A stretch of 64,000 nt of DNA from Pirellulales bacterium (GTDB lineage Bacteria > Planctomycetota > Planctomycetia > Pirellulales > JAICIG01): NCBI GenBank assembly GCA_035533075.1, contig DATLUO010000031.1:1-64000 (forward strand). The letters are read 5' to 3'. Shown here piece by piece: positions 53,721-64,000 of this stretch (positions within the stretch are counted from its first letter, which is position 1; each line of letters begins with the position of its first letter). Made by a program: the position numbers and the translations under genes. The notes below the pieces were generated by a model. It searched no databases, had not been told where the DNA came from, and saw only the letters and a program-made list of their open reading frames with translations.

Positions 53721-56700
53721 CTACGGCCGGCGGAGCGATTTGCCGACGAGCGTCTCCTTTTGCACGGGCGCCACGGCGGGATCGAATTTCAGCTCGTGCT
53801 CCGAGTCCAAGGGAGTGCCTGCACGGCCATACCCTTGCAGGTGAAACTTGTAAACGCCGGCCGGTAGCGCCTGTAAAGTAAACTGGCCCTTTGCATCCGT
53901 CTTTCCTTGCCAGCTTTTCGGCCCGCTCACGGTAACGTTGATGCGGTCCGCCGGTACGCCTTGAAACAGGACGGTTACGCTCAAGTTGGCCTTTTGATCG
54001 CCCCCGGCCGGCTTGGGCGGCGCGGGCACGACGCGAAACTCGAAGCGTTGCGGCCGTTCGGGCGTGTTGCCCGCCTCGTCGGTGGCCCGTGCCAGAAATT
54101 GCGAAACGCGGCCTGCCGGGTAGAACGTCTTGTCGTTCGTCGGCAACGAAGCCTCCCACACGTTGCCACCCGCGGCGGCCGGTTGCGCGAGGACGGGCAT
54201 TTTCCACTCGCCCGAGTCGTTGGGGTCGAGGGCCACTTCCACTTTTTTCACCGCGCCGCGCTCGTCGGTGGCGCGCAGCACGACGTGCAGCTCTTGGCCT
54301 ACCACCGCCGTGGGCAAGCGGTCGACCTCGATCGTCGGCGGCTTCGTGTCGAGCGTGAACGAACACGACACCGGGCGGAGATTGCCCAGCGTGGCGACGA
54401 CCTGCAACTCCTGGTCTTGATAGGCGTCGGTCGGAAAGCCCACTTCAATGTCGCCGACGGCCGCCTCGATGGCGAGCAGGCCGTCGGCCGCGGCGGGTAA
54501 CAAGAGAAACTTTGCCTGGCGGTCGGCGTGCAGCTCGACGCGCCGCTGCGTCTGGCCCGTCTCGGCGTCGATCTCGATGCGGACCAGGTTGCCGCGGCCG
54601 CGCAACCGGTCCTTGGGAAAATCGGCCGCCAGTTTCACGCGCGCCGGCTCGCCTTTTCTCAGCCAGTTTTGCTGGCCGGCCGGCGGCCCGATCAGCCGCA
54701 AGTCGAAATCGTCTTTGGGCAACTGCGTCCCGCGCGGCCCGTCGCAACGGATATCGTACCGGAACGCACGCGGATAATGGTCGGCGCTGACAAACACCTC
54801 CACCGGCCGGTCGTCGAGGTCCTTCGGCGGAATGATCGAAGCGCCCAACAAGCGGCCCGGCGGCGCCAGCGTTCCCTTGCCATATTGCCAGTCGATCGCC
54901 GATCCCTCGGGCGGCAGCCAGCCGGCATCGAGCGGCGCGAAGTCGAGCTCGATCAGCCGCTTGTCGAAATCGAAGCGGGCCGTCGGAGTGAGATAGCGGC
55001 GCGGATGGAGCGGCTCCAGAGAAATCCAGAACCGCTGCACGAGCGGTTGGCCTCCGGGTGCGGCGTCTTGCACCTCGCACACCAAGGCCGCAATCGGCTG
55101 GCCTTTGGGCGGCCCGGCGGGCGGTGCGTCGGCGCCGGCCGGCCCGGCCGCTTCCTTCGCCGCCGGTTTCGCCGGCTCAGCAAGCGGAAGCGGTTTCTTT
55201 TCGTCCGCCTCCAGCTTCAAAGTTTTGGCCTGCAGCACTTTGAAGCCGCCTGGCAGCTCATCCTCGACGCCGGGCAAGCGACCGAGCAGATCGGGCGGCA
55301 CGATGCCCGCGTCGGTGTACGCCAGCAGGCGATATTCGATTTCGCGTGGCCGGCGCGATGGATTGTGAAGCGACACGTGAAACGTGGTCTGCCCGGACGC
55401 CAGCGGCCGCAGAATGCGCCTTCTCGGATCGTCTTCCACGATCTCGTGCATCCCCTCCGGGCCGGGTGCCTCGACCACAAGCCTGATCGGCTCCAGCGGC
55501 CGCACGCGCACGTCGATCGTGTCGCGATCGGTCCGGCCTTCGGTCTCGATCTCCAACGTCAACCGGGCCGTGGACTCGAACCCTTTTGCCGCCCGGACCT
55601 TCACGGCGAGCATTTGTTCGCGATCGTCGGTCAGCTCCAGTTCGCCGTGCGTCGGCTCGATGAGCAGTTGAGACTGCTTATAGTCGGCCACTTTCCACCG
55701 GGCACGCACCGGTCGCGGAGGATCCGCTTCGATCCGCCACTGGACTTGGACCGCGTCATCGGCGGCAAGCTCGACCGGCGCTTTTTTGTTCAACCGCACG
55801 AGTTTCAAATTCCACGGAAGATTCAATTCGGGCAAACGGTCGCGAAGAATGAGGTCGCTTTCCATGTCGGCCGGAATGTTGGCCCGCGCGTCCAACAAGC
55901 GCAAGCGGTTGGCGGCATCCGAGCGTTTTGCGGCATCCCCGTCGTCGTTGAGACCGGCGATCAGGGCGCCGCGCAACGACGCGACCTGGGCGCCGATCGT
56001 GCGCAGCTCCGTCTGGTCCGACGAAGCGCCGCTGAGCCCACTCAACAGCTTATTTACGACGGCGGACTGGCCGCCGACGAGCTGAAGCCACTTTGCCTGC
56101 CAGCCTGCGAACTGCGCCGTCCTCTTCCACGCAGGCGGGCGCGGAACGATCTCGTCGTCGGTGGGCTTGTCGGAAAGGGGAAGCGATGCTTTCAGCGTCT
56201 CCAACAGCGCGATGCGCCGTTCGGCCTCGATCCAGGGGAACTCCAAAACGGCTTCGATCGTCGCCGGATCGCCACGATCAAATCGTTCGGCAAATCGTTC
56301 GGCGAAACTCGCCTCCAGCGCGTTCATCGGCGCCTGAAGCTTGCTGCAGGCCGCCTCCAAATCGGCGAGCCAGGTTCGGGCGTCGATGGCCTGGCCCGTG
56401 GCATCGGGCTGGCTGCGAAGCAGCGCCAGCAGTCGGGGAAGACCGTCCAGCAGAGCGTCGATGTTGCCCACATCCGCTCCGAGAACGAGCGGCGACTCGA
56501 TGTAATAACGCAGCCGCAACAGCAGATCGTTCCGCAAGCGGACCGCCGTCTGCAACTGCGGGTGCTGCTGTGCCCGGACGAGTGCCAGCGGCAAGTCGGA
56601 GGCATATCGGTTTAACTTGCGTCGCTCCTCATGCAAATCGCCGGACAGACCGCTCAACTGCCTTGGATCGTTGCTCACGCCGCACAGCCATCGTAACTCG

Positions 56701-58466
56701 TACCCTTTCAGTTTCTCGACCGACTGCAGCCAGCGATGGGGCGCGTAGTCGATCGCGGTCCAGTCGTGCGCGGCGCGGTCGACAAGCTCATGACACAGCA
56801 GCCATTGCTCCGCGAGCGATGCCAGAAAAGGATCGTCGTTTTTCTTGCCGCCGGCCGTGTCCTCGTCTTGGGAAAGCGGTTTGGCGACCGTGTCGGGCGA
56901 CTCGGCGGTGGCGTGGTCGTTGTCGTTGGCAGCCGGCGCAGCGGCTTGCGGCGGCTTTTTGTCGCCGTCGGGTTCCGCGACGGCGGGCGTGGCCGCAGCA
57001 GCGTCGCCTTCGGCCTTGGCGGTTTTGTCGGGCGCGGGCGCCTCGGCGGCTACGAGGTTGAAAACAACGCCGTAGCCGTAGGGTGGAAAAAGCGCGCTTG
57101 CAATCGCCGGCCCACCGTAAGTGACGTCGCTTACTTTTGGTGGCTGGGGCAGAGGCTGGCCACGTAGCGGTCGAGAATGATCAAAAACGCCGCGGCCAGC
57201 CGATGCCCCGGTAGCGTCACCACCGGGGCATCGCTGGCCGGCGGCGACTTTCGGCAATTGCAAGTCGATTGCGGCCAGCTCTGCCCCAGCCACCGCGAAT
57301 GTGTCGTTGCCAGCCGCGTGCGGTAGATTCATCGTGCCATACAAGCCCGAAGCGCGAGCGAGGAATCGCGACCGATTTGCCTCGCGTGCGCGTCGGGTGG
57401 TTGTCGCCTTCGGCTCGTCGACCTTGGGCGTGGGAGCCTCGCTGGGTTCCGCATCGCCTTTCGTGGGGGCGGGGACGGCCCGCTTAGTCCGGCCCACCAG
57501 CAGTACGTTGGCCGCCTCGGCCACCACGCGTTCGCCGTCCGCCGCCGGACCGAGGAGCTGAGGCGTTTGCGTTTCGCGGCCACCGCTGGCCTGCCACACA
57601 TAGCGGCCGACGCCTTCTCGCACGTACTGATACAGTTCCGCCAAGTCGACGCCGTTGTCGTTCTTGTCGGCCTTGCCCGCCAGTCCTTGGGCGACGAAGT
57701 GGGAAAACACGCACCGCGGGTCGGCATCGGCATGGGCGGCGTGTGACTTCTCAAACAGGTCGTGCGAGGCAAGCACCCACAGCCCCCGATCTCGCCCGGC
57801 TTGTTCCTTCACGAACTGCCGGTTTTTTTCGGCCAGCAACTGCGGAAACTCGTTGAGAACCATGCCCAACGCCAGATCGTGATCGAGCGATCCGGCGTCG
57901 AGCACCAGCAGCTTCGTTTTCGCGCCGCAGGCTGCGATCGCCTCGAAGACGGCGCCCAGATCCACCAGGCCGACCGCCGTCGTTTTGCCATCCGGAGGGT
58001 AGTAGTCGCTGCCCAGCAAATACGCGGTCGCGGCACTCTGAGCCTGGTTGGCAGAGACGCCGTGGGCCGCCAGGTAGACGATCAGCACGTCCTGCTCTCG
58101 CAGCTTCTGTGTTTTCAGGCTCTCCAGCCAGGCGTTGAGCTGATCGGCGCTGGTGGCGCCTTCGCCTCCGGGCAGGAAACGCACGGAAGCGATGCTCTTC
58201 AGGCCCTCGAGCGACTGCCTGGCGAAGGCCAGGGGCGGCGCGGCCAGCACGTCGTAGTCCGTCACCGCGGCGGCGGCCAGATACGTCACGGGCTGCGGGC
58301 CAACCATCCAAAAGACCGCCCAGGCGAAGCACGCCAGCAGACCGGCCCCCAGCAGCGACCAGAACACTCGGCGGACCTGGCGGCGAACCCGCGGATCGCC
58401 CGTAGCCGCTTGAGCGTCCCGCCAAGATCGCCGCGGACCTCCCGGAACGTGGCCGGCCGATGACAT
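53721..58466 (-). CDS. Giant caspase-like membrane protein, predicted catalytically inactive, with Ig-like/CarboxypepD domains
   Basis: 1581 residues. One membrane helix (VFWSLLGAGLLACFAWAVFW, ~35-54) precedes a caspase/metacaspase fold (~90-330): the His motif LIVYLAAHGVSANQ and LLVLDAGSLDHDLALG, where active C14 enzymes have D-A-C-x-S-G; the Cys is replaced by Gly here. Asp/Glu-rich KNDNGVDLAELYQYVREGV follows. Residues ~391-463 come from two interspersed repeats, then a disordered Pro/Ala tract (~475-545). The C-terminal half (~1000-1560) is beta-rich with a Big-like region (RATDERGAVKKVEVALDPND) and a CarboxypepD-type domain (VSGPKSWQGKTDAKGQFTLQ). It is divergent from tssK, with 212 bp between. 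Function unknown. Confidence 0.75.
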   Translation of the reverse strand: MSSAGHVPGGPRRSWRDAQAATGDPRVRRQVRRVFWSLLGAGLLACFAWAVFWMVGPQPVTYLAAAAVTDYDVLAAPPLAFARQSLEGLKSIASVRFLPGGEGATSADQLNAWLESLKTQKLREQDVLIVYLAAHGVSANQAQSAATAYLLGSDYYPPDGKTTAVGLVDLGAVFEAIAACGAKTKLLVLDAGSLDHDLALGMVLNEFPQLLAEKNRQFVKEQAGRDRGLWVLASHDLFEKSHAAHADADPRCVFSHFVAQGLAGKADKNDNGVDLAELYQYVREGVGRYVWQASGGRETQTPQLLGPAADGERVVAEAANVLLVGRTKRAVPAPTKGDAEPSEAPTPKVDEPKATTTRRAREANRSRFLARASGLYGTMNLPHAAGNDTFAVAGAELAAIDLQLPKVAAGQRCPGGDATGASAGRGVFDHSRPLRGQPLPQPPKVSDVTYGGPAIASALFPPYGYGVVFNLVAAEAPAPDKTAKAEGDAAAATPAVAEPDGDKKPPQAAAPAANDNDHATAESPDTVAKPLSQDEDTAGGKKNDDPFLASLAEQWLLCHELVDRAAHDWTAIDYAPHRWLQSVEKLKGYELRWLCGVSNDPRQLSGLSGDLHEERRKLNRYASDLPLALVRAQQHPQLQTAVRLRNDLLLRLRYYIESPLVLGADVGNIDALLDGLPRLLALLRSQPDATGQAIDARTWLADLEAACSKLQAPMNALEASFAERFAERFDRGDPATIEAVLEFPWIEAERRIALLETLKASLPLSDKPTDDEIVPRPPAWKRTAQFAGWQAKWLQLVGGQSAVVNKLLSGLSGASSDQTELRTIGAQVASLRGALIAGLNDDGDAAKRSDAANRLRLLDARANIPADMESDLILRDRLPELNLPWNLKLVRLNKKAPVELAADDAVQVQWRIEADPPRPVRARWKVADYKQSQLLIEPTHGELELTDDREQMLAVKVRAAKGFESTARLTLEIETEGRTDRDTIDVRVRPLEPIRLVVEAPGPEGMHEIVEDDPRRRILRPLASGQTTFHVSLHNPSRRPREIEYRLLAYTDAGIVPPDLLGRLPGVEDELPGGFKVLQAKTLKLEADEKKPLPLAEPAKPAAKEAAGPAGADAPPAGPPKGQPIAALVCEVQDAAPGGQPLVQRFWISLEPLHPRRYLTPTARFDFDKRLIELDFAPLDAGWLPPEGSAIDWQYGKGTLAPPGRLLGASIIPPKDLDDRPVEVFVSADHYPRAFRYDIRCDGPRGTQLPKDDFDLRLIGPPAGQQNWLRKGEPARVKLAADFPKDRLRGRGNLVRIEIDAETGQTQRRVELHADRQAKFLLLPAAADGLLAIEAAVGDIEVGFPTDAYQDQELQVVATLGNLRPVSCSFTLDTKPPTIEVDRLPTAVVGQELHVVLRATDERGAVKKVEVALDPNDSGEWKMPVLAQPAAAGGNVWEASLPTNDKTFYPAGRVSQFLARATDEAGNTPERPQRFEFRVVPAPPKPAGGDQKANLSVTVLFQGVPADRINVTVSGPKSWQGKTDAKGQFTLQALPAGVYKFHLQGYGRAGTPLDSEHELKFDPAVAPVQKETLVGKSLRRP
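57078..57118. repeat. GTAGGGTGG palindrome, copy C, inside a coding region
   Basis: GTAGGGTGGAAAAAGCGCGC...GCCGGCCCACCGTA is a diverged copy of the family at 44545. It lies within the giant caspase-like gene and is translated as part of residues ~449-463 (VSDVTYGGPAIASALFPPYG). Confidence 0.6.
57139..57294. repeat. Nested-palindrome element, copy 2, inside a coding region
   Basis: Termini GGTGGCTGGGGCAGAG (57139-57154) and CTCTGCCCCAGCCACC (57279-57294), with inner GATGCCCCGGT (57202-57212) and ACCGGGGCATC (57222-57232), match copy 1 at 39251-39402 in all four blocks; length 156 against 152 bp. It is in frame within the giant caspase-like gene and encodes about residues 391-442. Confidence 0.75.
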
Positions 58467-58678
58467 ACTTCACTCCTTCTCGGATCACAGATATAACGCC
58501 TGCCACCGCATATTCTGGACTCATTCCCAGCCGCATGCTGTATAACCCCTGCCACCGTCAGCGGCAACCGGGGCGCTGGTTGCATCTGTAAAGCCGCTCG
58601 TTCTTACATTACGATACAGAGAACGCCGTGCTCGGCCATGCCTGTACCGGCGATCGAATCTTCACCTTTTGCACTCTT
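58467..58678. other. Divergent promoter gap between giant gene and tssK
   Basis: No gene and no clear -35/-10 pair are seen. The two start codons are 212 bp apart. Confidence 0.4.
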
Positions 58679-60157
58679 ATGCGCAACCAGCCCGTTCATT
58701 GGTCGGAGGGAATGTTCCTGCGGCCGCACCACCTTCAGGCGGCCGACCGGCACTGGGCTGAATTGATTCAGACCTCGGAGCAGTGGGACCACCAATACAA
58801 TTATGGTCTGCGGCAGCTTGAGTATAGCAAGGAAGCCCTGTTGAACTTCCAGTTCCAGGTGAACACCTGCCAGGCGCGGATGAAGGACGGCACGCTCGTT
58901 TCGCTGGGTGCGTTTCAAGAACCCGACCGCGTCGATGTGAAGCGGGCCTTGCAGGAAGTCGAGACCTTGCGGCAGCAGACCGTCGGCCTCGAAGAAGCGT
59001 TTCAGGCGCGCGCCAAGGTGCAGGTGTTTCTGGCCGTGCCCAAGTTGAAGCTCGGCAGCGCCAACGTGGCGACGGCGGCCGACGGCGACGACCGCGAGTT
59101 GTGCCGCTATCACGAAACACAGTCGGCGTTGCAAGACGAGAGCCGCGGAGGCAACGACCAGGAAGTCCGCTTCCGCTCGCTGAACGTGAGATTGCTGCTG
59201 TCCACCGAGCCGACCGCCGGCTACGAGCTGCTGCCGATCGCCGAAATCGAACGGGCCGGCGCAGGCGGCGCCACGCCCCAGTTGACGAGCTATATTCCGC
59301 CCCTGCTGGCGGCCGACGCCTGGCCTCCCTTGGCCCGCGATTTCGTGCGGGCCATCTACGACATGGTGGGCAACAAACTGCAGCTTCTCACCGAGCAGGT
59401 GCAAAGCCGCGGACTGACGCTGGCCAGCCAGGAGCCGGGCGATCTCGACCGGCTGTGGATGCTGGCCCACCTGAACGAGGCCTACGCGACCCTGGGAGTC
59501 TTGACCTTCGCCGGCGGCGTCCATCCGTTGGCGGCCTACACCGAGCTGTGCCGGCTGGTCGGCAAGCTGGCGATTTTTGGGCCCGACCGCCGTGTGGGCG
59601 AAGTTCCCCGCTACGACCACGACGACCTGGAGCGAATCTTCGCCTGGGTCAAGCAGCAGATCGACACCATGTTGCACGCCATCCGGGAGCAGAGCTACCA
59701 GCAGCGCTTTTTCGTGCGTGCCGGCCTGGGCATGCAGGTCTCGCTGGAACCGAGATGGCTCAATCCCGATTGGCAATGGTACGTCGGCGTGGCCACCAGC
59801 GATCTGAACGAGACCGAATGCCGAGAGCTGGTGTCTCCCGGACAGCTCAATTGGAAGCTGGGCAGCAAAGACCAGGTGGAAATCATCTTTCAGCAGGCCC
59901 GCGCGGGACTGACGCTGTTGCCGCTGGACCGGACGCCCCCCGCCTTGCCGCTGCGCGGCTGGCTCTATTTCGAGGTGGGCCGGCAAAACGAAGCCTGGCG
60001 CGACGTGCAAAAAACGCAAACACTGGCGATGCGTTTCCGCGAGAGCTTGGTTTATAATGGCCACGAGTCGGGCGACGACCGTACGTTGACCGTGAACTTT
60101 CGTGGCAAGCGAATTAAACTGCAGTTCGCCCTATTTGCAGTGCCCTTGACGACATGA
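58679..60157 (+). CDS. tssK: TssK-like T6SS baseplate subunit
   Basis: 492 residues from ATG 58679 (an in-frame upstream ATG lacks homology). The TssK hallmark NQPVHWSEGMFLRPHHLQAAD is visible as QPVHWSEGMFLRPHHLQ near the start. LDRLWMLAHLNEAYATLG, LCRLVGKLAIFGPDRRVGEV, QRFFVRAGLGMQVSLEPRW and LNETECRELVSPGQLNWKLG fit TssK, which links the baseplate to the membrane complex of type VI secretion. The gene is followed, with a 4-bp overlap, by tssL. Length slightly exceeds the usual ~450. Confidence 0.88.
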   Translation: MRNQPVHWSEGMFLRPHHLQAADRHWAELIQTSEQWDHQYNYGLRQLEYSKEALLNFQFQVNTCQARMKDGTLVSLGAFQEPDRVDVKRALQEVETLRQQTVGLEEAFQARAKVQVFLAVPKLKLGSANVATAADGDDRELCRYHETQSALQDESRGGNDQEVRFRSLNVRLLLSTEPTAGYELLPIAEIERAGAGGATPQLTSYIPPLLAADAWPPLARDFVRAIYDMVGNKLQLLTEQVQSRGLTLASQEPGDLDRLWMLAHLNEAYATLGVLTFAGGVHPLAAYTELCRLVGKLAIFGPDRRVGEVPRYDHDDLERIFAWVKQQIDTMLHAIREQSYQQRFFVRAGLGMQVSLEPRWLNPDWQWYVGVATSDLNETECRELVSPGQLNWKLGSKDQVEIIFQQARAGLTLLPLDRTPPALPLRGWLYFEVGRQNEAWRDVQKTQTLAMRFRESLVYNGHESGDDRTLTVNFRGKRIKLQFALFAVPLTT

Positions 60158-60789
60158 CCCCCGATTTCGCCAGAGCCGTCGACCCCGTCTTTCTGCACGT
60201 GCTGCGGCTGCAAGAACGCCTGGCCAAAGGCGAAACCGCCTCGCCGCCCGACGAGCAGGCGAAGATCCGCGGCCTGATCGACAAAGCCGAGAGCATCGTG
60301 GGCCAGACCAGCGAGTGGAAACTGGCCAAGTATGCGCTGGTGGCCTGGGTCGACGAGATGCTCGTCGATCCGGCCTGGGAGGGAGCCAACTGGTGGACCA
60401 ACCACGTGCTGGAGTGGGAGCTGTTCAACACGATGGAACGCTTTCACCTGTTTTACGAGCGGGCCAAAGACGCCTATGCGGCGGGCTTTCGCAACGCCTT
60501 GGAAGTGTTTTATGTTGCCGTGGTGCTCGGCTTTCGCGGGTTATATAAAGAGGAACCGAGCTCGCAGCTTGCGGCGGGCCGCGAGTTGCCCGAAAACATC
60601 GAGAAATGGGCGGCCCAGATTTCGATGGCCATTCGCATGACGCCGCGGCCGCCGATCGTCAGCGGCGGCAAGCCGGTGGCCGGCGCTCCGCCGTTGACCG
60701 GACAGGCGCTGTTGATCAGCTCGTCGATGCTGGCGGCGGTGGTGGCGGCGGTCGCGGTGGGGAGTATCATTATCGCCCGGGGCCTCTGA
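60154..60789 (+). CDS. tssL: TssL/DotU-like T6SS membrane protein
   Basis: 211 residues, overlapping tssK by 4 bp. DotU/TssL features: LRLQERLAKGETASPPDEQA, YALVAWVDEMLVDPAWEGAN, WWTNHVLEWELFNTMERFH and ALEVFYVAVVLGFRGLYKEE. A single C-terminal membrane helix (LLISSSMLAAVVAAVAVGSI, ~180-199) ends the protein. It would join the inner-membrane complex with TssM. There is no peptidoglycan-binding extension. Confidence 0.88.
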   Translation: MTPDFARAVDPVFLHVLRLQERLAKGETASPPDEQAKIRGLIDKAESIVGQTSEWKLAKYALVAWVDEMLVDPAWEGANWWTNHVLEWELFNTMERFHLFYERAKDAYAAGFRNALEVFYVAVVLGFRGLYKEEPSSQLAAGRELPENIEKWAAQISMAIRMTPRPPIVSGGKPVAGAPPLTGQALLISSSMLAAVVAAVAVGSIIIARGL

Positions 60790-60800
60790 TCGACGTTGGA

Positions 60801-62456
60801 ATGGTGATGCAATACCTTCGGCAGTTTTTCCAGGTTCTGTTCCATCCGATTTGGCTGCTGTGTACGTCGCCGCAGCAATTGATCGCCACGCCGCGCAGGC
60901 TGCTCGGTCTGTCGCTGGCGGCCAGAGTGGCCATTCTGGTGGCGATGTTCCTCGTGCTGGCCACGCTGGCGATCTTCTACCAGGCGCTGAAACAAGACGA
61001 GGCCTGGTCGCGGTACGTGTCGATTCTGTCGGTGCTGAGCGTGCTGTCGCTGGTCATTCCGGTCGTCACCTATCAGACGCTGAAGCTCTGGTTGGAAGGC
61101 GAGACTTCGGAGTTTCAAGACATCGATCGCGCCTGGCAGGCGGGCGTGGCCGAGCTGGAGCGAAACGGCATCGAAGTTTCGCGCCTGCCGCTGTTCCTTC
61201 TGATCGGCTCGCCCGGCGAGTTCACCGAGCGGGCGCTGTTCGATGCGGCCAAGCTCAGCTTGACGGTGCGGCAGTTTCCCGAAGGCGACAGCGCCCTGCA
61301 CTGGTATGCCACCGGCGACGCCTTGTACCTGGTCGCCAGCAAGGTGGGCTGCTTGAGCAAAGTTGCCGGCGACGGCGAGCGGGCCGTCGAGAGCGACCGC
61401 AAACACAGCGGCCCGCCCGAGGCCGACGCGGCCCGTGAGCCGCGGCCCGCTCCGGTCGGGGACCTGCGCATGACCATGGGCGCGGTGCCCGACATCCGCG
61501 AGACGATGGCCAGCGCGGCGCTGGCCCCTCCGCCCTCGGCGGCGGGCCGTTATCGCGGCACGATGGAGTTCAACCCCGTGGACGACAGCCGCCTGGCGCC
61601 CGGCACCGCCCAGCTTGTGGCGGTCCGCGAGTCGGTCCATCTGAGCCACGAAGAGTGGCAGGCGCAGCCGCGGCGACTGCGTTATCTCTGCCAGCTCATT
61701 CGCCGTGCGCGGCAGCCGTTTTGCCCGATCAACGGCGTGGTGGCGTTGCTTCCCTATGCGGTCATTCAGCGCGGCGACGACGATGCCAGCGAAGTGCGCA
61801 AGTCGGCCCGCGAAGACATCACCACGTTGTCGCAGGCCCTCCGCTTGCGGTATCCGTTGATCGCGTTGGTCACCGGCATGGAGAGCGAGGACGGTTTTTG
61901 CGAGCTGGTGCGGCGGGTCGGCCCCGAGCGCGCCAAGCGGCAGCGGTTCGGCAAAGGGTTCGTGGTTTGGGACGACGCCACCTCGGAACAGTTGGGAGCG
62001 CTCTGCATTCATGCCTGCGGGGCCTTCGAAACGTTCATCTACGAAATGTTCAAGGAACGGGGCGCGCTGACCAGCGAAGACAAAACGCCGGGCAACCGCA
62101 AGCTTTACACGCTGCTCTGCCGCATCCGCCGCAACTTTCAGGACCGCCTGGACGACATTCTGGCGCAAGGCTTTGCCCAGGATCCGGAGCAGAACGGCCA
62201 GGCGGCCGGGCCGTTGTTTGGCGGGTGCTATTTCGCGGCCACCGGCGACACGGCCGGCAGCCAGGGCTTTGCTCGCGGCGTGCTGCGCGACCGCTTGACC
62301 GACCCTGAGGAGCGAGACGGTCCGCTCTACGAAGACCTGGAGTGGTCGCAGTCGATGTTGCGCGAAGACGCCTGGTATCGTCGGTTGGCCTACGCCGGCT
62401 TCGTGCTCGACACGGTGCTGTTGGCCGCGGCGGCGGGCGCGTTCTTCTTGCTCTAG
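60801..62456 (+). CDS. Short TssM/IcmF-like protein without Walker A motif
   Basis: 551 residues from ATG 60801, 11 bp after tssL. Two N-terminal membrane helices (ARVAILVAMFLVLATLAIFY, VSILSVLSVLSLVIPVVTY) precede a cytoplasmic domain; a C-terminal helix (LDTVLLAAAAGAFFLL) closes it. The IcmF/TssM GTPase region starts RLPLFLLIGSPGEFTERALF, where the normal P-loop GxxGxGKT has become GSPGEFTE, so nucleotide binding is doubtful. It lacks the ~600-residue periplasmic part of TssM (about 1100-1200 residues). Assigned by order (tssK-L-M) and the N-terminal pattern. It may be a reduced TssM in a T6SS-like system. Confidence 0.72.
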   Translation: MVMQYLRQFFQVLFHPIWLLCTSPQQLIATPRRLLGLSLAARVAILVAMFLVLATLAIFYQALKQDEAWSRYVSILSVLSVLSLVIPVVTYQTLKLWLEGETSEFQDIDRAWQAGVAELERNGIEVSRLPLFLLIGSPGEFTERALFDAAKLSLTVRQFPEGDSALHWYATGDALYLVASKVGCLSKVAGDGERAVESDRKHSGPPEADAAREPRPAPVGDLRMTMGAVPDIRETMASAALAPPPSAAGRYRGTMEFNPVDDSRLAPGTAQLVAVRESVHLSHEEWQAQPRRLRYLCQLIRRARQPFCPINGVVALLPYAVIQRGDDDASEVRKSAREDITTLSQALRLRYPLIALVTGMESEDGFCELVRRVGPERAKRQRFGKGFVVWDDATSEQLGALCIHACGAFETFIYEMFKERGALTSEDKTPGNRKLYTLLCRIRRNFQDRLDDILAQGFAQDPEQNGQAAGPLFGGCYFAATGDTAGSQGFARGVLRDRLTDPEERDGPLYEDLEWSQSMLREDAWYRRLAYAGFVLDTVLLAAAAGAFFLL

Positions 62457-62998: not shown

Positions 62999-64000
62999 GT
63001 GGCCGCACAACGGTTTCCGTGGAAATTCAGCCAACGAACTGCCACCACCACGCCCGGCGGCACCAGCAGTGGCGGCACCTTCGGCGACGGCACCAAGGAC
63101 ATCGACACCGCCGGCGCCCACGAAACCAAGCCGCAAGGCTCCGATACGCTCAACGCCGAAACCTACCAATCGACCAGCCAAAGCTACACCGACGGCGGCA
63201 GCTACTCCGCCAGCGGCGGCAGCGAAAGCCGCAACGGCACCTTCAACGCCAACGACACCGACCTCAACACCGATGACGAGACCGAGTCGGGCGGATATAA
63301 TGGCGGCAGCACCGGCAGCGAGAACCTGTCGGCCGACGACAGCACGCTTGCCACCGAGAGCGCCAACGGCAACTACACCAGCGCCTCGGGCAGCGTGAGC
63401 GCCACCGGCAACTCGACCAACGACGATCTGCACACCGACGACGGCAAGAAGTCGGAGAGCTTCCCGGTGGGCGCCACCGGCAGCCACACCGATTCGAGCG
63501 GCTACTACGACAAGGACCACGGACACGCCACCGGCCCCTTCAGCGAGGCAGGCGGCGCCATCACCACGGAGGACCAGAGCTACACCGACGACGACATCGC
63601 CAGCGCCAGCGGCCAGCAACACGATACGCAAACCAGCTCGCCCGGCGCGGGCGTGACGGTCGCCACCGACGACCAAAGCTCCGGCTCGACCAGCAAAAGC
63701 TACCACGACTCCGGCGACCGCGACCAGACCGCCGCCGGCACCACCGACTCGGGCAGCGACACCTCGATCGAACACGACACCAGCTCGCTGACCGACAAGA
63801 CCACCACCACGGTCACGGGCGGCGGCTCCGTCGAGACCGACGGCGGCGGCGACACCGCCGATTACACCTATACCGGCAGCTACGACATGGCCAAGGGCAG
63901 CGAAACCGACGACGGCACCTTCCGCCGGGAAGACCAGCCCAGCTCCAGCGGCAGCTACACGGCCAGCTATACCGCGCCGGGCGACCCCGGCACCACCTGG
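62999..64000 (+). CDS. Ser/Thr/Gly/Asp-rich repetitive protein, start uncertain, cut by right edge
   Basis: The frame is open from 62936 to the window end. GTG 62999 is used as the start, TTG 62951 being an alternative; neither has a good ribosome site or signal peptide. From about residue 15 the composition is extreme: SSGGTFGDGTKDIDTAG, YTDGGSYSASGGSE, NGGSTGSENLSADDST, DSSGYYDKDHGHATG. It is acidic with few hydrophobic residues, as in the extracellular stalk or N-terminal part of giant planctomycete proteins (some of Rhs/YD type). The 5' end may be truncated. No domain can be named. Confidence 0.5.
   Translation, partial: MAAQRFPWKFSQRTATTTPGGTSSGGTFGDGTKDIDTAGAHETKPQGSDTLNAETYQSTSQSYTDGGSYSASGGSESRNGTFNANDTDLNTDDETESGGYNGGSTGSENLSADDSTLATESANGNYTSASGSVSATGNSTNDDLHTDDGKKSESFPVGATGSHTDSSGYYDKDHGHATGPFSEAGGAITTEDQSYTDDDIASASGQQHDTQTSSPGAGVTVATDDQSSGSTSKSYHDSGDRDQTAAGTTDSGSDTSIEHDTSSLTDKTTTTVTGGGSVETDGGGDTADYTYTGSYDMAKGSETDDGTFRREDQPSSSGSYTASYTAPGDPGTTW

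Follow-up and report, generated by a model that had tools for sequence, protein, structure and literature searches.

A truncated TssM conserved in type VI secretion systems of Planctomycetia and the probable replacement of its periplasmic half

The feature taken to define the canonical type VI secretion system (T6SSi) is its anchor, the envelope-spanning channel of TssJ, TssL and TssM (TssJLM). In the T6SSiii of Bacteroidetes, lineage-specific proteins (TssN/O/P/Q/R) stand in place of TssJLM and there are no homologues of TssM or TssL. Systems of the T6SSiv type have been reported to function without TssJLM. A Walker A motif is common in the TssM (IcmF) family, but not universal. Among planctomycetes, Rhodopirellula baltica has appeared in lists of T6SS carriers since 2009 (PMC2660368) and was noted for its many T6SS genes (PMC5394234). 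The second paper describes the planctomycete periplasm as variable and sometimes greatly enlarged. Here, we describe a tssK-tssL-tssM locus of a Pirellulales bacterium (class Planctomycetia). It lies in positions 1-64000 of a 64,804-base contig (C31; DATLUO010000031.1, assembly GCA_035533075.1), and this stretch of 64,000 nucleotides is referred to as the window. Truncation of TssM and loss of Walker A, IcmF_C and TssJ are conserved clade-wide, and four extra protein families co-occur and cluster with the T6SS genes. The T6SS of Planctomycetia thus probably works with a rebuilt membrane complex, in which a module of F4, HEAT and barrel proteins replaces TssJ and the periplasmic half of TssM. 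The available excerpts of both R. baltica papers list T6SS genes and describe neither the truncation nor the partners. A search of the open full-text literature, with subscription papers and preprints outside its scope, turned up no account of either the short TssM or its partners.

An earlier note on this DNA had described TssK and TssL as standard and TssM as a half-length protein without periplasmic part, with GSPGEFTE at the P-loop site. This description agrees with the features found:

58679-60157, + strand: tssK, the baseplate-membrane complex adaptor (PF05936, E 3e-71, 241 bits; TIGR03353, E 6e-74, 250 bits)
60154-60789, + strand: tssL (DotU), short form with one C-terminal transmembrane helix (PF09850, E 2e-22, 80 bits)
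60801-62456, + strand: short tssM, 551 amino acids (aa), three transmembrane helices, cytoplasmic half only (PF14331, IcmF-related_N, E 4e-14, 53 bits)
61206-61229, + strand: lost Walker A position of TssM, reading GSPGEFTE (alignment with homologues)
62397-62453, + strand: third transmembrane helix (TM3), the last 19 residues of TssM, with no periplasmic residues after it (hydropathy)

The tssL gene overlaps tssK by 4 bp. Hydropathy places the transmembrane helices of TssM at residues 41-59, 72-90 and 533-551, and the stop codon follows directly after TM3. PF14331 was the sole family match of the 551-aa protein in the domain-model search, and no periplasmic TssM domain was matched. Alignment of the short TssM with a profile of long TssMs (hhalign) covered the cytoplasmic region (probability 99.7, E 1e-26) and nothing past it. 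The window protein therefore has the cytoplasmic domain, the N-terminal transmembrane helices and the TM3 of the TssM family; the large TssJ-binding periplasmic domain is missing, the open reading frame (ORF) ending at TM3. An AlphaFold2 model of the protein reached a predicted local distance difference test score (pLDDT) of 86.6 and a predicted template modelling score (pTM) of 0.81. Foldseek with this model gave no significant match, and the TssM profile retrieved nothing from the PDB sequences.

Distribution of the short TssM was analyzed in 199 genomes of the class. Its profile matched 88 of the 199 genomes and TssC was found in 81; the same short TssM with TssC, for which the earlier note had proposed to compare relatives, occurred in 79 genomes, TssM only in nine and TssC only in two (Fisher P 2e-42). 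These tallies span 46-51 genera, and the genome-level statistics are inflated by relatedness. All but one of 82 distinct complete TssM ORFs were short (81/82, 445-683 aa), and none of the 81 complete short homologues contained a Walker A motif. A tail of 0-9 aa past TM3 was found in 69 of 82 TssM homologues. The short homologues come from dozens of genera and are approximately 20-46% identical to the window copy. TssJ (PF12790) was matched in none of the 199 genomes, with a positive E. coli control. IcmF_C occurred among the 199 only in genome G019 and in no TssC-positive genome. The IcmF_C search, which was negative in every TssC-positive genome, thus speaks against the classical periplasmic domain being encoded by a gene of its own. 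A frameshift or pseudogene origin of the window TssM is ruled out by the 81 homologues that end at the same point. Being conserved with TssC in the class, while sister classes retain a long TssM, the short form is a variant of the whole clade and not a degenerate relic. The earlier note had left the choice between a degenerate complex and a distinct planctomycete variant. The variant is supported by dozens of genera with TssC and by the contractile genes in the genome, and the degenerate complex is not supported.

Genome G019 is the only one of the 88 TssM-profile genomes with a full-length TssM (1357 aa), and it has no TssC. On a 9.9-kb contig (G019:C97, L054:997-5070), this TssM with Walker A is found together with a 431-aa TssL. 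The long TssM of G019 may be a contamination or a horizontally acquired fragment.

As a control, TssM was searched across the phylum Planctomycetota. All TssMs of Planctomycetia were short, while TssM open frames of approximately 1000-1680 aa were found in nearly all other planctomycete classes; the few shorter frames there are weak or fragmentary matches. Fourteen sister-class loci were read and 12 TssMs recovered. All 12 were long (1129-1560 aa), and each had a Walker A motif. Lipoprotein candidates of TssJ size were found upstream of tssK in the sister classes, and 3 of 5 tested matched PF12790. The F4, HEAT and barrel families had no match in the 14 sister-class loci.

The earlier note had called the tssK-tssL-tssM unit reduced and T6SS-like, but the unit is not isolated. 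The note had proposed to search the genome for tssB/C, hcp and tssE/F/G, and all of these were found on contig C275 of the same genome, which carries tssA, tssB, tssC, hcp, tagJ/ImpE, tssE, tssF and tssG. The genome thus encodes a sheath (TssB/TssC), a tube (Hcp), a baseplate (TssE/F/G/K), TssA and TssL. Relatives carry spike genes (VgrG/PAAR) and ClpV (TssH) in their loci, e.g., G136, G075 and G146. Because tssA, B, C, E, F and G, hcp and tagJ sit on C275, the unit in the window is the operon for the membrane complex of a T6SS that looks complete. The earlier note had made its suggestion depend on three points: the genome does contain further T6SS genes, the tssM frame is free of errors, and a separate gene homologous to the TssM periplasmic part was not found.

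The gene divergent from tssK had been mentioned in passing as a pseudo-caspase. This protein, F4-I, turned out to be the partner that is conserved, and no other feature of the locus is as informative. Its features are:

53721-58466, - strand: F4-I, 1581 aa, single-pass pseudo-caspase with the N-terminus inside and an Ig-like rod, divergent from tssK (NF047832, E 8e-8; co-occurrence; linkage)
58419-58427, - strand: SWR motif in the cytoplasmic tail of F4-I (W[RK] enrichment in F4 tails)
58311-58367, - strand: single transmembrane helix of F4-I, residues 34-52, positive side inside (hydropathy and charge)
57609-58148, - strand: pseudo-caspase domain of F4-I, LVLDAG in place of the Cys motif, HG kept (NF047832; alignment)
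53724-55804, - strand: C-terminal beta-sandwich (Ig/transthyretin-like) rod of F4-I, approximately residues 888-1581 (model; CarboxypepD_reg and SdrD_B matches in family members)
58467-58678, no strand: intergenic region of 212 bp between the divergent F4-I and tssK genes (gene positions)

From the gene positions, the 212-bp gap probably holds divergent promoters. The match of F4-I to the caspase model NF047832 (E 8e-8) scored 32 bits, below the cut-off of 140, and the catalytic His-Cys dyad is incomplete, with HG present and DAG at the Cys position. An alignment showed that the catalytic Cys is replaced in most F4 copies. F4 proteins are inner-membrane proteins of 1500-1800 aa and mostly extracytoplasmic. 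They consist of a positive N-terminal tail, one transmembrane helix, a caspase-like domain, a helical region and one of two alternative C-termini, which is formed by Ig/transthyretin-like domains in F4-I and by a vWA domain in F4-V (12/12). Both types are homologous over approximately 630 profile positions (E 2e-44) and are therefore paralogues. Foldseek with F4-I retrieved strings of Ig/MG-like domains, with low TM-scores only.

Of the 62 genomes with an F4 match at E<=1e-25, 59 have TssC. Near-complete genomes with an F4 match numbered 26, and in 15 of these F4 was located <=10 kb from tssM (P about 2e-24). The pair is usual: two F4 matches were <=10 kb apart in 17 of the 18 genomes in which two were scored. 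A WR or WK motif was present in 33 of 45 F4 cytoplasmic tails, compared to a mean of 12.9 and a maximum of 22 in shuffles. Some long sister-class TssMs also escape the periplasmic Pfam models, and therefore F4-I and F4-V were compared with the long-TssM profile. This revealed no similarity (probabilities 0.1-0.2%). The F4-V of the window's genome (L190:8588-13741, + strand, contig C97 of that genome) keeps the LVLDCN and GHG motifs. Therefore, this copy may have an active caspase-like site, in contrast to the dead one of F4-I in the window.

Two further families are associated with the T6SS. The HEAT-like protein is secreted, has a lipobox in some lineages and was matched at E<=1e-30 in 61 genomes, of which 60 were T6SS-positive. 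The barrel protein has a signal peptide and a C-terminal barrel region whose last residue is aromatic (E<=1e-70 in 44 genomes, 43 T6SS-positive). A contiguous order F4I-barrel-HEAT-F4V-(FHA)-tssM-tssL-tssK was found in G191 (an uncultured Schlesneria; same locus as L149) and in G162. In R. baltica the order is vgrG-hcp-F4I, then tssK-tssL-tssM-sigma-tssA-B-C-C2-tagJ-E-F-G. The window's genome has its HEAT copy on contig C161 and its barrel copy on C268. Since neither contig carries other detected T6SS genes, both assignments are tentative.

These findings are consistent with the following model of a replaced envelope channel. TssL and the short TssM would form a platform that holds the TssK baseplate at the inner membrane. 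The TssM part of this platform would consist of two N-terminal transmembrane helices, a pseudo-GTPase-like domain without P-loop, and TM3. F4-I and F4-V would be anchored beside TssL-TssM, possibly docked via the WR motif, and the pair would span the periplasm with the secreted or lipid-anchored HEAT protein. In most lineages, the barrel protein would supply the outer-membrane exit. We infer that the four extra families physically form the complex and carry the path of the needle. As F4 has no detectable homology to the TssM periplasmic part, the replacement would be one by analogy. The enlarged, variable periplasm of planctomycetes may be a reason for dropping the fixed-length TssM-TssJ channel. 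More tentatively, the Planctomycetia T6SS could be a distinct type, with a minimal TssL-TssM, Ig-rod and vWA pseudo-caspase paralogues, HEAT and barrel proteins, which evolved in place of the TssJ/TssM channel and is fitted to a wide and variable periplasm.

Several points weigh against this model. The missing homology between F4 and the TssM periplasmic part is one of them. Co-occurrence counts were corrected for shared ancestry only by genus tallies, and the model of F4-I (residues 490-1581) is of only moderate confidence (pLDDT 62). Part of family f21 has a short TssM and TssC, often without a HEAT or barrel match, and two such loci that were read hold only one, shorter F4. In the R. baltica-like genus g30 (G031, G080, G084, G102, G136), HEAT is present and a barrel match is absent. 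In the window's own genome, the barrel match on C268 resembles general paralogues and is located away from T6SS genes.

The strongest alternative, which we consider unlikely, is that there is no dedicated trans-periplasmic channel. The short TssM-TssL would then only anchor the baseplate, the tube would pierce the periplasm and outer membrane alone, and the F4 proteins would be regulators or sensors, with vWA and pseudo-caspase domains serving for adhesion or for firing signals. The reported function of T6SSiv-type systems without TssJLM would fit, as would the sensor-like architecture of F4, the FHA proteins nearby and the part of f21 that retains a short TssM without most of the extra proteins. 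However, conservation of two large extracytoplasmic proteins, HEAT and usually an outer-membrane barrel goes beyond the needs of a sensor. Clearly less likely still, F4 proteins could be T6SS cargo, either large effectors or proteins similar to polymorphic toxins, in which the caspase domain would serve for autoprocessing. Polymorphic toxins are known to use caspase-like domains for processing (PMC3482391), the F4-I of R. baltica adjoins hcp and vgrG, and the DC motif is kept in some F4-V copies, including that of the window's genome. Yet, F4 proteins have a single N-terminal transmembrane helix, whose inner side is positively charged, and a WR motif conserved in the cytoplasmic tail. They lack a variable C-terminal toxin domain, most have lost the Cys, and two fixed types occur class-wide. 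A decaying T6SS, with the short TssM as pseudogene remnant of a full-length gene, might be suspected from the half-length TssM without P-loop and the fragmented assembly, but is very improbable, being already contradicted by 81 complete homologues of the same architecture from dozens of genera, nearly always with TssC.

Further observations were made at the T6SS loci. On C275, a sigma-70-type factor of approximately 230 aa (L003:12379-13074, - strand) is encoded directly upstream of tssA. The same position is occupied in 12 other Planctomycetia T6SS loci, which makes it a candidate dedicated T6SS sigma factor. An 808-aa ORF (L003:4861-7287, - strand) lies in the tss operon between tagJ and tssE and combines a CxxCxxCC domain with a methyltransferase that has a PKMT-type C-terminal domain; a similar methyltransferase is also found near F4 in G136. 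A run of N (L003:3028-4332) separates tssE and tssF of C275. A second TssC-like gene follows tssC in tandem in G136, G061, G078 and in Rhodopirellula and Stieleria loci. In several genomes a third, distant TssC is located near F4 or tssK. These additional copies may point to a mixed sheath. Downstream of tssM, the earlier note had suggested a Ser/Thr/Gly/Asp-rich protein as effector or surface partner. This found no support: the ORF has no family match, is not a recurrent neighbour, not being seen in the other loci, and is incomplete. It runs on the + strand from 62951 through the window end at 64000 to the contig end at 64804 (L004:4952-6805), at least 618 aa without a stop, and the opposite strand is open too. 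It is probably a low-complexity surface-type protein, with no T6SS tie as far as seen.

In summary, a whole class keeps the contractile machine without its envelope-spanning part, and this lineage evidently manages without a Walker A motif in TssM. The class includes cultured species, e.g., R. baltica and Stieleria, and the sister classes of the phylum keep the original. A class without the spanning half next to sister classes with it therefore offers a natural experiment on the essential parts of TssM and on the crossing of a wide periplasm. Four protein families and a possible docking motif (WR) are now named.

The canonical T6SSi, e.g., of enteroaggregative E. coli and Agrobacterium, has homologues of the TssK, TssL and cytoplasmic TssM region found here, and TssA, B, C, E, F, G and Hcp are encoded in the window's genome. 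In contrast, TssM ends here after TM3, Walker A and TssJ are missing, and other envelope proteins are associated. With the T6SSiii of Bacteroidetes, the system would share the replacement of TssJLM components by lineage-specific proteins. However, the TssL-TssM platform is retained, which argues against T6SSiii membership. The T6SSs of other Planctomycetota classes have the same core genes in similar order within the same phylum, but their TssM is long and has Walker A, at least three have TssJ, and the loci examined are free of F4, HEAT and barrel genes. The non-canonical complex of Acinetobacter likewise has no TssJ, a loss apparently offset by lineage-specific envelope proteins (TsmK, TslA/AsaA, TagX/AsaE; PMC10564176), but its TssM is full-length with a periplasmic channel, whereas half of TssM is missing here. 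In the CTS1 system of Citrobacter rodentium, TssM exists in two lengths, and function requires the form truncated at the C-terminus (PMC4256274); this form, however, has 807 aa and retains some of the periplasmic domain, and the full-length protein is produced and needed as well. The T6SS of R. baltica is the same system as the one described here, with a short TssM and F4-I in its locus.

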